64,000 nt of DNA from Hymenobacter jeollabukensis (GTDB taxonomy: Bacteria > Bacteroidota > Bacteroidia > Cytophagales > Hymenobacteraceae), in contig NZ_VAJM01000002.1 in assembly GCF_005771675.1 (NCBI RefSeq), forward strand, positions 620,001 to 684,000, given 5' to 3'. The position numbers and the translations under genes are program-made. The number at the start of each line of letters is the position of its first letter. Position 1 is the first letter of the stretch. Shown piece after piece: positions 18,584 through 22,347 of the stretch. Under the pieces are notes generated by a model. That model did not search any database. It saw nothing but the letters and a program-made list of their open reading frames with translations, and was not told where the DNA came from.

Positions 18584-19855
18584 TTACAGCACCAACTCCG
18601 GCGCGGGCAGTGTCGTCTGCTCAATCAGGCCGGCAGCCAGGGTGGCGCCGGTTTGCTCGTCGAGCAGGATAAAGGCGCCGGTGGTGCGGTTCTGCAGGTA
18701 GGTGTCGGCCACCAGGGGCAGGGCCGTCTTCAGCCGCACCCGCACGATGTCGTTGAGCTGGGCCTCGGCGGCCGGCTGCTGCTCCAGCGTCTGAATATTG
18801 GTCTTCGCCACGATGGCCTGCACCACGGCCCGGGTTTTGGCGGCGTGGTGCTGCACCAGCAGCTTGCGGCCGGGGCGCAGGGGCTGCTCCACCATCCAGC
18901 ACAGCGTAGCTTCCAGCTCCCGCGTGGGCTCCGGGGCCTGGGCCAAGGGCACGATGGTGTCGCCCCGGCTCACATCCACGTCGTCGGTGAGGCGGAGTAC
19001 CACGCCCTGCGGCGCCACGGCCACCGGCACCGCCTGCTGGTTGATTTCGATGGCCGCCAGCGTGGTTTCGAGGCCGGCGGGCAGCACCAGCACCCGGTCG
19101 CCGGGGCGGTACACCCCGCTCTGGATGCGGCCGGCGTAGCCCCGGTAGTCAGGCAGCTCCGCGGTCTGCGGGCGGATGACGTACTGCACCTGCAAGCGGG
19201 CCGCGTCGGTGGTGGCTTCCCGGCTCACGTCCACGGTTTCCAAGTGCTCCAGCAGGTTCGGACCCTGGTACCAGGGCAGGTGGGCCGAGGCCCGCACCAC
19301 GTTGTCGCCATTGAGGGCGCTGAGCGGGATGCTCACCACCTGCCGGATGCCCAACTGCGCGGCCACGGCGGCGTAGTCGGCCACGATGTCGCGGAACGTC
19401 TGCTCGGAGTAGTCCACCAGGTCAATCTTGTTGACGGCCAGCACGAAGCGCCGGATGCCCAGCAGCGCCGCCACGATGCTGTGCCGCCGCGTCTGCTCCA
19501 CCACGCCCTGCCGCGCATCCACCAGCACGATGGCCAGGTCGGCGTTGGAGGCGCCCGTCACCATGTTGCGGGTGTACTGCACGTGGCCGGGCGTATCGGT
19601 GATGATAAACTTGCGCCGCGGCGTAGTAAAGTACTTGTGCGCCACGTCGATGGTGATGCCCTGTTCCCGCTCGGCCCGCAGCCCGTCGGTAAGCAAGGCC
19701 AGGTCCACGGTGCCGGCCGCCGAGGTGCGGTTCTGCGCCTCCAGCGCCGCCAGCACGTCCAGCGAAACGGCGTCCGAATCGTACAGTAATCGGCCAATCA
19801 GCGTGCTCTTGCCGTCGTCGACGCTGCCGCAGGTGATAAATTGAAGAAGGTCCAC
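18584..19855 (-). CDS. cysN: Sulfate adenylyltransferase subunit 1 (GTPase)
   Basis: GTP-hydrolysing subunit that drives formation of adenosine 5'-phosphosulfate (APS) by CysD. The 423 residues begin (GTG at 19855) with DLLQFITCGSVDDGKSTLIG, containing the P-loop. Switch II is DTPGHVQYTRNM, base recognition is NKIDLVDY, and two beta-barrel domains follow, with no C-terminal APS kinase (CysC) fusion. The GTG start is preferred because the in-frame upstream stretch is the junction palindrome at 19861-19984. Downstream of cysD in the same leftward unit. Confidence 0.93.
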   Translation of the reverse strand: MDLLQFITCGSVDDGKSTLIGRLLYDSDAVSLDVLAALEAQNRTSAAGTVDLALLTDGLRAEREQGITIDVAHKYFTTPRRKFIITDTPGHVQYTRNMVTGASNADLAIVLVDARQGVVEQTRRHSIVAALLGIRRFVLAVNKIDLVDYSEQTFRDIVADYAAVAAQLGIRQVVSIPLSALNGDNVVRASAHLPWYQGPNLLEHLETVDVSREATTDAARLQVQYVIRPQTAELPDYRGYAGRIQSGVYRPGDRVLVLPAGLETTLAAIEINQQAVPVAVAPQGVVLRLTDDVDVSRGDTIVPLAQAPEPTRELEATLCWMVEQPLRPGRKLLVQHHAAKTRAVVQAIVAKTNIQTLEQQPAAEAQLNDIVRVRLKTALPLVADTYLQNRTTGAFILLDEQTGATLAAGLIEQTTLPAPELVL

Positions 19856-19860
19856 TTGTT

Positions 19861-19984
19861 GAATGTGGTTAATGTGGAGAATGTGAGAAATGTGGAGAAT
19901 GAGTTGAGTGAAGCGGGGTGAGCTATGCGACGAAGAAGCCATCATTCCGCACATTTCCACATTCACCACACTTCGCACATTAAA
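19861..19984. repeat. Word-palindrome filling the cysD-cysN junction
   Basis: The left arm is made of loosely tandem AATGTGG / GAATGTGAG words (19861-19910); the right arm (19941-19983) carries their complements (CCACATT, TTCACCACA). It spans the whole spacer between cysD and cysN. Confidence 0.75.
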
Positions 19985-20899
19985 TCAGAAGTAGCCGTTG
20001 CGCTTCCGGTCTTCCATGCCGGTTTCCGAAATCCGGTCGTCGAGGCGGGTGGCGCCCCGCTCGCTGACTTTGGCCTGCAGGATGTCATCGATGATGGCCT
20101 CCAGCGTGGCGGCGTCACTTTCCACGGCGGCGGTGCAGGTGGAGTCGCCCACGGTGCGGAAGCGCACCTGCCGGGTGGTCAGCTCGTCGGTGGCGTCAAG
20201 GCTGAGGTGCTCGGTCAGGGCCAGCAGCTGGCCCGAGGGCAGCACCACGCAGCGCCGCTCGTGGGCGAAGTAGATGCTGGGCAGCTCGATCTGCTCCCGC
20301 TGGATGTAGTTCCACACGTCCAGCTCCGTCCAGTTCGATATCGGGAACACCCGCACGTTCTCGCCGGGCTGAATCTGCCCGTTGTAGATGTTCCACAGCT
20401 CGGGCCGCTGCCGGCGCGGGTCCCACTGCCCAAACTCGTCGCGCACCGAGAAAATCCGCTCCTTGGCCCGGGCTTTTTCCTCGTCGCGCCGCGCCCCGCC
20501 GATGCAGGCGTCGAAGCCAAACTCCTCGATGGTGTCGAGCAGGGTGTAGGTCTGCAGGGCGTTGCGGCTCGGAAACTTGCCGCCCGGCTCCCGTAGCCCG
20601 CGCTGCCGGATGGTGTCTTCCACCCGCCGCACAATCAGCTGCTCGCCCAATTCGGCCGCCAGTTGGTCGCGAAACTGCAGTACCTCGGGGAAGTTGTGGC
20701 CGGTATCGATGTGGACCAGCGGGAAGGGAAACCGGCCGGGCCGGAAGGCTTTCTGGGCGAGGCGCACCAGCGCAATGGAGTCCTTGCCGCCCGAAAACAG
20801 CAGGGCGGGGCGCTGAAACTGCCCGGCCACTTCGCGCAGGATGTGGATGGCTTCGGCTTCGAGCCGGTCGAGGTAATCTAATCTGGGCAGCGTCGGCAT
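19985..20899 (-). CDS. cysD: Sulfate adenylyltransferase subunit 2
   Basis: Catalytic adenylyltransferase that makes APS from ATP and sulfate, with CysN as GTPase partner. The 304 residues have the PP-loop motif LLFSGGKDSIALVRLAQKAF (about residues 33-52), the HIDTGHNFPEVLQFRD segment, GGARRDEEKARAKERIFS, and WNIYNGQIQPGENVRVFPISNWTELDVW. The length and C-terminus (DRISETGMEDRKRNGYF) are standard. It is separated from cysH by a dispersed repeat element (21013-21127) and from cysN by a word-palindrome, both apparently inside the operon. Confidence 0.95.
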   Translation of the reverse strand: MPTLPRLDYLDRLEAEAIHILREVAGQFQRPALLFSGGKDSIALVRLAQKAFRPGRFPFPLVHIDTGHNFPEVLQFRDQLAAELGEQLIVRRVEDTIRQRGLREPGGKFPSRNALQTYTLLDTIEEFGFDACIGGARRDEEKARAKERIFSVRDEFGQWDPRRQRPELWNIYNGQIQPGENVRVFPISNWTELDVWNYIQREQIELPSIYFAHERRCVVLPSGQLLALTEHLSLDATDELTTRQVRFRTVGDSTCTAAVESDAATLEAIIDDILQAKVSERGATRLDDRISETGMEDRKRNGYF

Positions 20900-21128: not shown

Positions 21129-21872
21129 CTAGTGAGTTTCGGCAGCAGCGGTAGATTCGGCCGTGGCGTGCAGGCCGCACTCCTTGGCCGATTGGTCTTC
21201 CCACCACCAGCGGCCGGCGCGGAAGTCTTCGCCCGGCTTCACGGCCCGGGTACACGGCGCGCAGCCGATGCTCACGAAGCCCTGCAGGTGCAGCGGGTTG
21301 TGCGGAATGCCGTATTCGCGGACGAAGGCCCAGGTTTGCTCCCAAGTCCAGTCCAGCAGCGGATTTACCTTGAACAGCTGGTAAGCGTCATCCCAGTCCA
21401 CCAGCTGCATCCCGGTGCGGTTGGCCGACTGCTCGGCGCGGATGCCCGTTATCCAGGCAGCTTTACCGGCCAGGGCGCGGTTCAGGGGCTCCACCTTGCG
21501 CACCTGGCAGCAGGCCTTGCGGGCGTCCACGCTTTCGTAAAAACCGTTCGGGCCCTGCCGCTCCACCAGGGCCGCGGCTTCTTCCTGATTGGGGTAATAC
21601 GCCTTGATGGTTTTGCCGTATTTCAGCACGGTTTTGCTCCAGGTCGAATACGTTTCCTGGAAATTCCGCCCGGTGTCGAGCGTGAATATTTCAATGGGTA
21701 AATCATGGGCGAAAATCAGGTGGGTAATTACCTGGTCTTCGAGCCCAAAAGAGGTGGAAAAAGCGGCCTTGCCAGCAAATTCGGCAGCTACGGCGCGCAG
21801 AATATCCAGCGGGTCGGCGCCGGCAAACTGCTGCCGGAGTTGCGCCACCTGAGCATCGATAAGCGTCGACAT
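21129..21872 (-). CDS. cysH: Phosphosulfate reductase of the iron-sulfur (APS reductase) type
   Basis: Reduces activated sulfate to sulfite. The 247-residue protein has FSTSFGLEDQVITHL and LDTGRNFQETY (PP-loop-like fold), KACCQVRKVEPLNRAL, the second cysteine pair SIGCAPCTRAV and the C-terminal catalytic ECGLH. The CC and CxxC pairs are the ligands of a [4Fe-4S] cluster in assimilatory APS reductases and are absent from cluster-free PAPS reductases. The substrate is therefore probably APS, consistent with no cysC in the cluster. ATG at 21872. The long leader upstream carries a SAM-I riboswitch and a Cys-rich short ORF. Confidence 0.93.
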   Translation of the reverse strand: MSTLIDAQVAQLRQQFAGADPLDILRAVAAEFAGKAAFSTSFGLEDQVITHLIFAHDLPIEIFTLDTGRNFQETYSTWSKTVLKYGKTIKAYYPNQEEAAALVERQGPNGFYESVDARKACCQVRKVEPLNRALAGKAAWITGIRAEQSANRTGMQLVDWDDAYQLFKVNPLLDWTWEQTWAFVREYGIPHNPLHLQGFVSIGCAPCTRAVKPGEDFRAGRWWWEDQSAKECGLHATAESTAAAETH

Positions 21873-21984: not shown

Positions 21985-22067
21985 GGACACGGCTAAGCGG
22001 CGCACGGAGGCCAGGCGCTTAGTTGTCGGTCGATCCAGAAAAACGGGAAAGGAGGTCGTGGGGAGCC

Positions 22068-22187
22068 TCAACAACACGCGCGGCGCATCGGCATGCAACA
22101 GCAACAGCAGCCGTTGAAGCCGAAGGGGCGCAGCTGCGAGGCAGCGGCACCAGCCAGATTAGCGCGAGAGTTGAGGTCGGTGTTCAC
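22068..22187 (-). CDS. Cys-run leader peptide ORF upstream of cysH
   Basis: A 39-codon ORF with GTG start (22187-22185) and TGA stop (22070-22068). Near its end the codons TGC TGT TGC TGT TGC encode five consecutive Cys (residues 27-31), and the last two residues are also Cys. The central part reads SQLRPFGFNG. Third positions are GC-rich as in real genes here. It starts 10 nt after the 3' strand of the SAM-I aptamer and precedes cysH by about 195 bp. A Cys run ahead of sulfate-reduction genes suggests a regulatory peptide that stalls ribosomes when charged tRNA-Cys is scarce (inference). Whether it is translated is unproven. Confidence 0.55.
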   Translation of the reverse strand: MNTDLNSRANLAGAAASQLRPFGFNGCCCCCMPMRRACC

Positions 22188-22196
22188 GACGTCGGT

Positions 22197-22290
22197 GTTT
22201 TTATATCACCAGGACTTGGCACCGTTTCGGACTGTCCGCTGGTTGCCGGCGCTTCACGGAGCCTGTCTCTCCACGCCTCTGTATAAAAAC
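22197..22290 (-). promoter_or_regulatory. SAM-I (S-box) riboswitch aptamer
   Basis: Read on the minus strand, P1 pairs 22282-22290 (GTTTTTATA) with 22197-22205 (TATAAAAAC). Between them lie the conserved SAM-I blocks in order: AGAGGCGTGGAGAGACAGGC, then TGAAGCGCCGGCAACC, and finally GGTGCCAAGTCCTG. It begins about 18 nt after the predicted transcription start and controls the cysH-cysD-cysN unit; SAM binding would lower expression of sulfate assimilation. The identification rests on the signature blocks and P1. Confidence 0.92.
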
Positions 22291-22314: not shown

Positions 22315-22347
22315 CAAAGGTAGCGACACAATTTTCGGAATTGCAAA
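22315..22347 (-). promoter_or_regulatory. Promoter of the sulfur-assimilation transcript
   Basis: TTTG (22344-22347) and TACCTTTG (22315-22322) on the minus strand are spaced by 21 bp. Transcription would start near 22308, immediately before the SAM-I aptamer, giving a leader of about 435 nt to cysH. Confidence 0.75.

Follow-up and report, generated by a model that had tools for sequence, protein, structure and literature searches.

Cysteine-run leader ORFs behind SAM-I riboswitches in Hymenobacteraceae: a candidate two-input control of sulfur assimilation genes

The cysH locus of Hymenobacter jeollabukensis

The window, i.e., the whole 64,000-nt stretch that was analysed, carries on its minus strand, in this order, a promoter-like site, a SAM-I aptamer, 10 nt of spacer, a leader ORF with Cys codons, a 195-nt gap, and the genes cysH, cysD and cysN. 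The promoter-like site (22315..22347), located by pattern search 25 nt 5' of the aptamer, has the form TTTG-N21-TACCTTTG, which we take to be the consensus of the Bacteroidota promoter type. The SAM-I (S-box) aptamer (22198..22289), whose P1 helix is of the A/U type, passes the gathering score of RF00162 (71.6 vs 44.4 bits) and is predicted to bind SAM; SAM is the sole Rfam match at gathering thresholds in the whole window, where T-box RNA gave no match. The 3' strand of P1, AUAUAAAAA (22198..22206), forms an A-rich stretch 11-19 nt 5' of the leader start codon, and the same position is A-rich in the start context of the 121 leaders described below. Bacteroidota ribosomes are thought to bind where this strand sits.

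The leader ORF (22068..22187), taken from the ORF list, has 39 codons followed by TGA. It starts with GTG, as do the same-genus and aligned cysH leaders, and this is the sole ATG, GTG or TTG of the frame between a TGA inside the 3' end of the aptamer and the Cys run. The full product is MNTDLNSRANLAGAAASQLRPFGFNGCCCCCMPMRRACC, and its C-terminal end reads CCCCCMPMRRACC, with five Cys codons in tandem (TGC TGT TGC TGT TGC; 22095..22109) and a final Cys pair (TGT TGT; 22071..22076) that adjoins the stop. The earlier note, made from the sequence alone, had placed a Cys-run leader between a SAM-I riboswitch and cysH, ten nucleotides after the aptamer, and this arrangement was confirmed by the RF00162 match (71.6 bits), the ORF at 22187..22068 and the NF002537/TIGR02055 matches of the gene. 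Its description of the tail (five Cys, two Met, two Arg and two Cys) is right except that the Pro of Met-Pro-Met and the Ala of Arg-Arg-Ala were left out. Its two functional proposals, namely a second control layer sensing tRNA-Cys and a leader start hidden upon SAM binding, would both match the anatomy seen here.

The gap between the leader and cysH contains a possible hairpin (CTAAGCG...CGCTTAG; 21993..22022), with no T run after it. It was recognized by eye in an alignment, in which a hairpin is found at a similar place in same-genus leaders, and the RNAalifold consensus did not single it out. The product of cysH (21129..21872) is a phosphoadenylyl/adenylyl-sulfate (APS/PAPS) reductase, based on matches to NF002537 and TIGR02055 over their cut-offs. 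It is followed by cysD (sulfate adenylyltransferase subunit 2; 19985..20899) and cysN (subunit 1; 18584..19978), the latter given as the longest ORF, the true start of which may be further in.

Recurrence of the aptamer/leader layout

The layout recurs across Hymenobacteraceae and, less regularly, across the order. SAM-I riboswitches as such are present in 8/8 genomes of the genus and 119/120 of the family, and in 28/37, 29/40 and 34/41 genomes of the order, class and phylum samples, respectively. Our aptamer set comprises 204 SAM-I loci from 77 genomes (30 from the own genus, 140 from the rest of the family, and 34 from other families of the order). For the genus, 30 of 35 aptamers were taken in; for the family, the best 30 loci from 120 genomes and then 123 of the 124 matches of 27 chosen genomes (one weak match being left out); and for the order sample, 34 of 49 matches from other families, to which one of five own-family matches in genome G016 was added. 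The aptamers were typed by the last nine bases of P1 as A/U (TATAA and the like) or G/C (GATAAG and the like, with ends GGATATAAATT not counted), and they fall into 139 A/U, 64 G/C-containing and one that is neither. We scored a Cys leader where an ORF starts at most 45 nt after the aptamer and has at least three Cys in its last 16 codons.

Defined in this way, Cys leaders follow 120 of the 139 A/U-P1 aptamers, 3 of the 64 G/C-P1 aptamers and the single aptamer of neither type (A/U vs G/C, Fisher p 7e-31 with kinship ignored). Most of the G/C-P1 aptamers (54/64) precede metH or metB. In two of the three G/C positives (L186 and L196), both metY leaders, P1 has a 5' strand of the A/U kind; the third (L018), which precedes metH, looks like an overlap with the metH coding sequence. 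By kinship, the A/U positives amount to 22/22 in the genus, 89/96 in the rest of the family and 9/21 in other families. A looser rule based on the last 25 codons raises these values to 22/22, 94/96 and 11/21, yet it also passes 8 of the 64 G/C types. Seven of the 96 A/U-P1 loci in the rest of the family fail the test, and several of the A/U-type failures retain scattered Cys (e.g., QHGCC...VCM...GMSC). Outside the family the pairing of aptamer and leader does not hold generally, with 12 of the 21 A/U-P1 aptamers lacking such a leader. Among 56 class and phylum loci, which stand outside the main counts, two have a Cys-run leader (L247 and L260), and the start codon of the L247 leader overlaps the final base of the aptamer match.

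When the sequences downstream of 130 A/U-P1 aptamers were dinucleotide-shuffled, at least four Cys in the last 16 codons were found in 59 of 6500 shuffles; the real loci reach this number in 101 of the same 130, and in 109 of the full A/U set of 139. The strict promoter-like pattern lies at most 90 nt 5' of 80 of 203 aptamers, where 0.2 are expected from base shuffles.

Anatomy and codon usage of the leaders

Of the 121 positives that are not of the G/C type, 112 have the start codon 6-12 nt after the aptamer P1, 108 contain 3 to 10 Cys in a row, and 90 have Cys as the last codon; the median length is 38 codons. One hallmark of an attenuator, a short ORF with codons for the pathway amino acid near its end, is accordingly present. 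Cys has a share of 0.33 among the last 16 codons and of 0.018 before them, a difference that arises partly from selecting ORFs for Cys. The fraction of Met, for which the ORFs were not selected, is 0.073 near the Cys run and 0.012 elsewhere, and this enrichment suggests that methionine charging might be read as well.

Own-genus leaders prefer the rare codon TGT (TGT 86, TGC 41; window ORFs of more than 250 codons, TGT 26, TGC 111). Own-genus metY runs have conserved third-position patterns (30 same codon, 0 synonymous), while in metY group g5 an ungapped comparison, counted from the stop, gives 35 same, 17 synonymous and 28 non-synonymous. Where run lengths differ within a group, many Cys positions differ.

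Conservation among cysH leaders

A second set of loci was assembled around cysH by protein search of named genomes (the best 80 of 404 relatives), and appears to overlap the 204-locus set in part. A SAM-I aptamer over the cut-off occurs in 49 of the 80 loci, all of them among the 51 Hymenobacteraceae loci of the set, and is followed by a Cys leader in 48; within the last 25 codons, 47 of these leaders have at least four Cys and the other has three. The exception is L346 (Hymenobacter siberiensis; 933-1040), where an early stop cuts the leader frame and the aptamer and Cys codons are otherwise intact. Loss of the Cys run from behind a retained aptamer had been named in the earlier note as a finding that would speak against its proposal; it occurs in this one case of 49, by premature stop, and the other 48 keep the leader.

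The alignment of cysH leaders that had also been suggested came out as predicted. Three columns of the 48-leader alignment hold Cys in 48/48, 47/48 and 47/47 sequences, with TGT and TGC interchanging and codon positions 1 and 2 almost invariant, and among the seven same-genus cysH leaders the Cys positions show 90 same codons, 31 synonymous and 16 non-synonymous changes. A Met column, one or two codons after the Cys clusters, is present in 43 of the 48, and GTG is the start codon in 48/48 aligned and 7/7 same-genus leaders. Mean entropies over all columns are 1.19, 1.02 and 1.09 for codon positions 1, 2 and 3. There is no codon periodicity outside the Cys and Met columns, and so it is not the whole peptide that is conserved, but only the Cys (and Met) codons.

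A 12-member Hymenobacter cysH group (L309, L315 and L302 are among such leaders) has the almost invariant sequence TACAGCATGGNTGTTGT, which can fold into a hairpin, with the first pair of Cys codons as its 3' arm.

Genes behind the leaders

Target families were assigned by motif, with all P1 types taken together, and Pfam was run on one or two examples of each; it supports examples of cysH, permease, metY, ATP-grasp, antiporter, sulfite reductase, receptor and carboxypeptidase. Leaders recur in front of unrelated genes, at 22/23 cysH, 39/45 metY and 5/5 sulfite reductase loci. They also precede 18/18 ATP-grasp, 16/16 amino acid permease, 5/5 antiporter and 4/4 M14 carboxypeptidase genes, 7/9 genes for TonB-type receptors and 7/20 unassigned genes. 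At the low end are metH (1/50, the L018 case), metB (0/7) and asd/hom (0/2). Hence the split runs largely along the pathway, in that genes of sulfur uptake and fixation have the leader, whereas methionine synthase is without it.

Cys leaders without an intact aptamer

Two Hymenobacter cysH loci have a Cys leader without an intact aptamer. In L307, where the leader starts with ATG, there is no SAM match even at E 1, and in L331 the aptamer has decayed to 38.6 bits (cut-off 44.4). Survival of the leader in both cases suggests that it is probably kept for its own sake.

Outside Hymenobacteraceae the set contains 29 cysH loci (22 from Mucilaginibacter), five of which have a Cys-run leader with a terminator (L344, L345, L355, L357 and L366; three Saprospiraceae, one Chitinophagales and one unplaced Bacteroidetes MAG). 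None of these five gave a SAM riboswitch match at E 1. Their leaders contain 5-7 tandem Cys, followed by a hairpin with a T run (-16 to -28 kcal/mol) and then by cysH, and L345 has two such Cys-run/terminator units in tandem (about 760-1150). Directly after the Cys run comes CCGAAGCGG, or CCGAGGCGG in L366, which could pair, as judged by eye, with CTTCGG of the first arm of the terminator. From their sequences, the five loci likely represent a textbook cysteine attenuator in Bacteroidota, and our guess would be that the riboswitch-free leader is older than the riboswitch form.

Further short Cys-containing segments, not counted as leaders, occur in Mucilaginibacter (L348 and L352, with a CCC segment about 450-600 nt 5' of cysH) and in Pedobacter (L368, with the segment YCCTYCR).

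Terminators, pairing and Rho

Intrinsic terminators are not enriched behind the riboswitch leaders, where they occur at -6 kcal/mol in 55/97 leaders and 227/388 shuffles, and at -12 kcal/mol in 32/97 and 94/388; as a general output for these 97 leaders the intrinsic terminator was dropped, since it does not stand above the shuffles. The attenuator hallmark of terminator plus antiterminator was thus not found in the 97 riboswitch leaders, and strong terminators are confined to the five riboswitch-free ones. Pairing of the Cys run as a general antiterminator is likewise a weak candidate in the 97 leaders (mean z -0.25 with upstream and -0.51 with downstream RNA), the downstream pairing being clearest in metY (mean z -1.04). 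Downstream of the stop, the RNA folds somewhat more strongly than its shuffles (mean z -1.46; below -2 in 10 of the 25 sampled), but a shared structure was hardly detectable by RNAalifold across 12 metY or 13 permease leaders. For cysH, RNAalifold gave 33 pairs with 6 changed on both sides in the 12-member Hymenobacter group, and 6 pairs with 3 changed on both sides in a 14-member group, covariation that is too little to be a basis for a shared structure.

After the leader stop, C exceeds G in 92 of 97 leaders. This fits Rho sites but is unspecific, because the 5' UTRs of metH show the same bias in 34 of 43 cases. In the superattenuation model, too, an untranslated leader means OFF; since Rho and superattenuation models agree on this, the effects of SAM and cysteine would have the same sign under either.

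A possible two-sensor mechanism and its alternatives

We consider it likely that the aptamer and the leader work as two sensors in series, with SAM gating the loading of ribosomes and charged tRNA-Cys setting the extent of stalling at the leader's end. Transcription would start just 5' of the aptamer, as the promoter-like site indicates. At low SAM, the anatomy suggests that P1 opens and that its A-rich 3' strand loads ribosomes, with the leader start about 9 nt further on; at high SAM, P1 would stay closed and the leader untranslated. When charged tRNA-Cys is scarce, the ribosome would stall at the Cys codons by the stop, and would otherwise terminate and be released. In what is the weakest step, a stalled ribosome would hold the downstream RNA in an ON state, most likely by blocking Rho or a downstream structure, and a leader that is untranslated or freely terminated would correspond to OFF. 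The expected logic is that sulfur-assimilation genes are ON only if SAM and cysteine are both low, and that metH responds to SAM alone. With somewhat less confidence, we favour the wider proposal of a riboswitch-gated attenuator with the logic "SAM low AND cysteine low", standing in front of several families of sulfur genes in Hymenobacteraceae and in some further families of the order. It may have been linked to a more ancient Cys-run attenuator of Bacteroidota, and it may read Met codons too.

These leaders might instead be translated spacers under SAM control that act on Rho or reinitiation, with the Cys codons incidental or part of a UGU-repeat RNA motif. Riboswitch-controlled uORFs are known in mycobacteria (PMC11260477, PMC12810186), the remainder of the ORF shows little selection on amino acids, the codon pattern is conserved in some runs, and a conserved hairpin may cover the first Cys codons in the 12-member Hymenobacter clade. 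However, the Cys columns are kept despite TGT/TGC interchange, Cys leaders survive without an intact aptamer (L307 and L331), and Cys runs occur with terminators and no aptamer in the five Saprospiraceae-type loci, and we regard a mere spacer as unlikely. Chance is a negligible explanation. In GC-rich genomes TGY repeats are frequent as a result of frequent CTG (Leu) runs, and the pattern TGYTGYTGYTGYTRR, which also admits a final TGG, occurs 45 times in the genome of the window; but start, frame and stop keep their place with respect to the aptamer, the shuffles produced such ORFs in 59/6500 cases against 101/130 loci, and the layout is also found in relatives whose leaders average 47% G+C (48 loci).

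A nascent peptide rich in Cys could also sense the metal or redox state rather than charged tRNA-Cys, and the Met found one or two codons past the Cys cluster in 43/48 cysH leaders would suit such a role; PMC9426467 appears to deal with a copper-responsive uORF. On the other hand, Cys at the extreme end of the ORF would still lie inside the ribosome tunnel at stalling, run length and neighbouring residues vary, and the targets are largely sulfur genes, which together make a metal or redox sensor quite improbable.

Relation to known systems

Both parts of the proposed two-sensor leader are known, and within the open-access literature it is their coupling in series that appears new. That literature, which leaves most subscription papers outside, yielded no paper, in the parts available, that describes a Cys leader behind a SAM riboswitch, or Cys leaders in Bacteroidota. 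The earlier note's statement that no described system of S-box and Cys leader was known to it from Bacteroidetes agrees with this, although Cys-run leaders by themselves are known from Actinobacteria (PMC1262725, PMC4633059).

The aptamer is a full-length match to SAM-I, and a ribosome binding site within the 3' side of P1 is a known SAM-I platform (PMC2258182). The difference is that the first item under control here appears to be a Cys-run leader ORF, and not a gene or an adjacent terminator. The leaders resemble those of actinobacterial and mycobacterial cys operons, which are short ORFs with Cys codons near the stop, but no riboswitch precedes the latter as far as the available text of PMC1262725 and PMC4633059 goes; the first of these also reports no conserved terminator hairpins and raises Rho. 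The title of Canestrari 2020, as cited in PMC13236596, describes actinobacterial Cys uORFs as leaderless, whereas the ORF here has an aptamer 5' of it and a promoter-like site further 5', so that its start would be more than 100 nt away from the predicted 5' end of the transcript. The riboswitch-controlled uORFs of Mycobacterium tuberculosis (B12, PMC11260477; Mbox, PMC12810186) likewise combine an aptamer with a small translated ORF that affects downstream expression, with Rho involved in the Mbox case, but the portions seen mention no run of pathway amino acid codons. The uORFC-8-2 motif before cysS of Rhodobacterales (PMC8632094) shares the tandem Cys codons and a proposed ribosome-mediated attenuation; in the part consulted it differs by an apparent intrinsic terminator, by having no riboswitch, and by gene and phylum. 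In clostridia one sulfur operon, ubiG (PMC2940859), is subject to SAM as well as to the charging of tRNA-Cys, through an S-box and a Cys T-box with an antisense RNA from the S-box-dependent promoter, whereas a leader peptide is not mentioned in the text available. Two further reports touch on the subject, as far as their available parts go: SAM-II controls translation at a distance (PMC9373788), and a Bacteroides transcriptome contains 5' UTR ORFs resembling leader peptides, with no mention of cysteine (PMC7366714).

If the two-sensor reading is true, the layout would be a natural two-input RNA gate, would give a reason for the A/U-type P1 helices of some SAM riboswitches in Hymenobacteraceae and relatives, and would place cysteine attenuation in Bacteroidota. 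More than 100 natural variants are at hand, including genomes that have the leader and lack the aptamer.

Compound loci

Four loci (L154, L160, L161 and L184) have a second open segment ending in MCCC after the first Cys leader. These double-segment loci precede genes for TonB-type receptors, the gene at L160 being unassigned by the motif rule. In one genome, two SAM-I aptamers (L148 and L222) are arranged back to back on opposite strands, about 290 nt apart, in front of divergent genes. Each is followed by a Cys-rich leader, and one of the two gene products starts like the M14 carboxypeptidase of L147.
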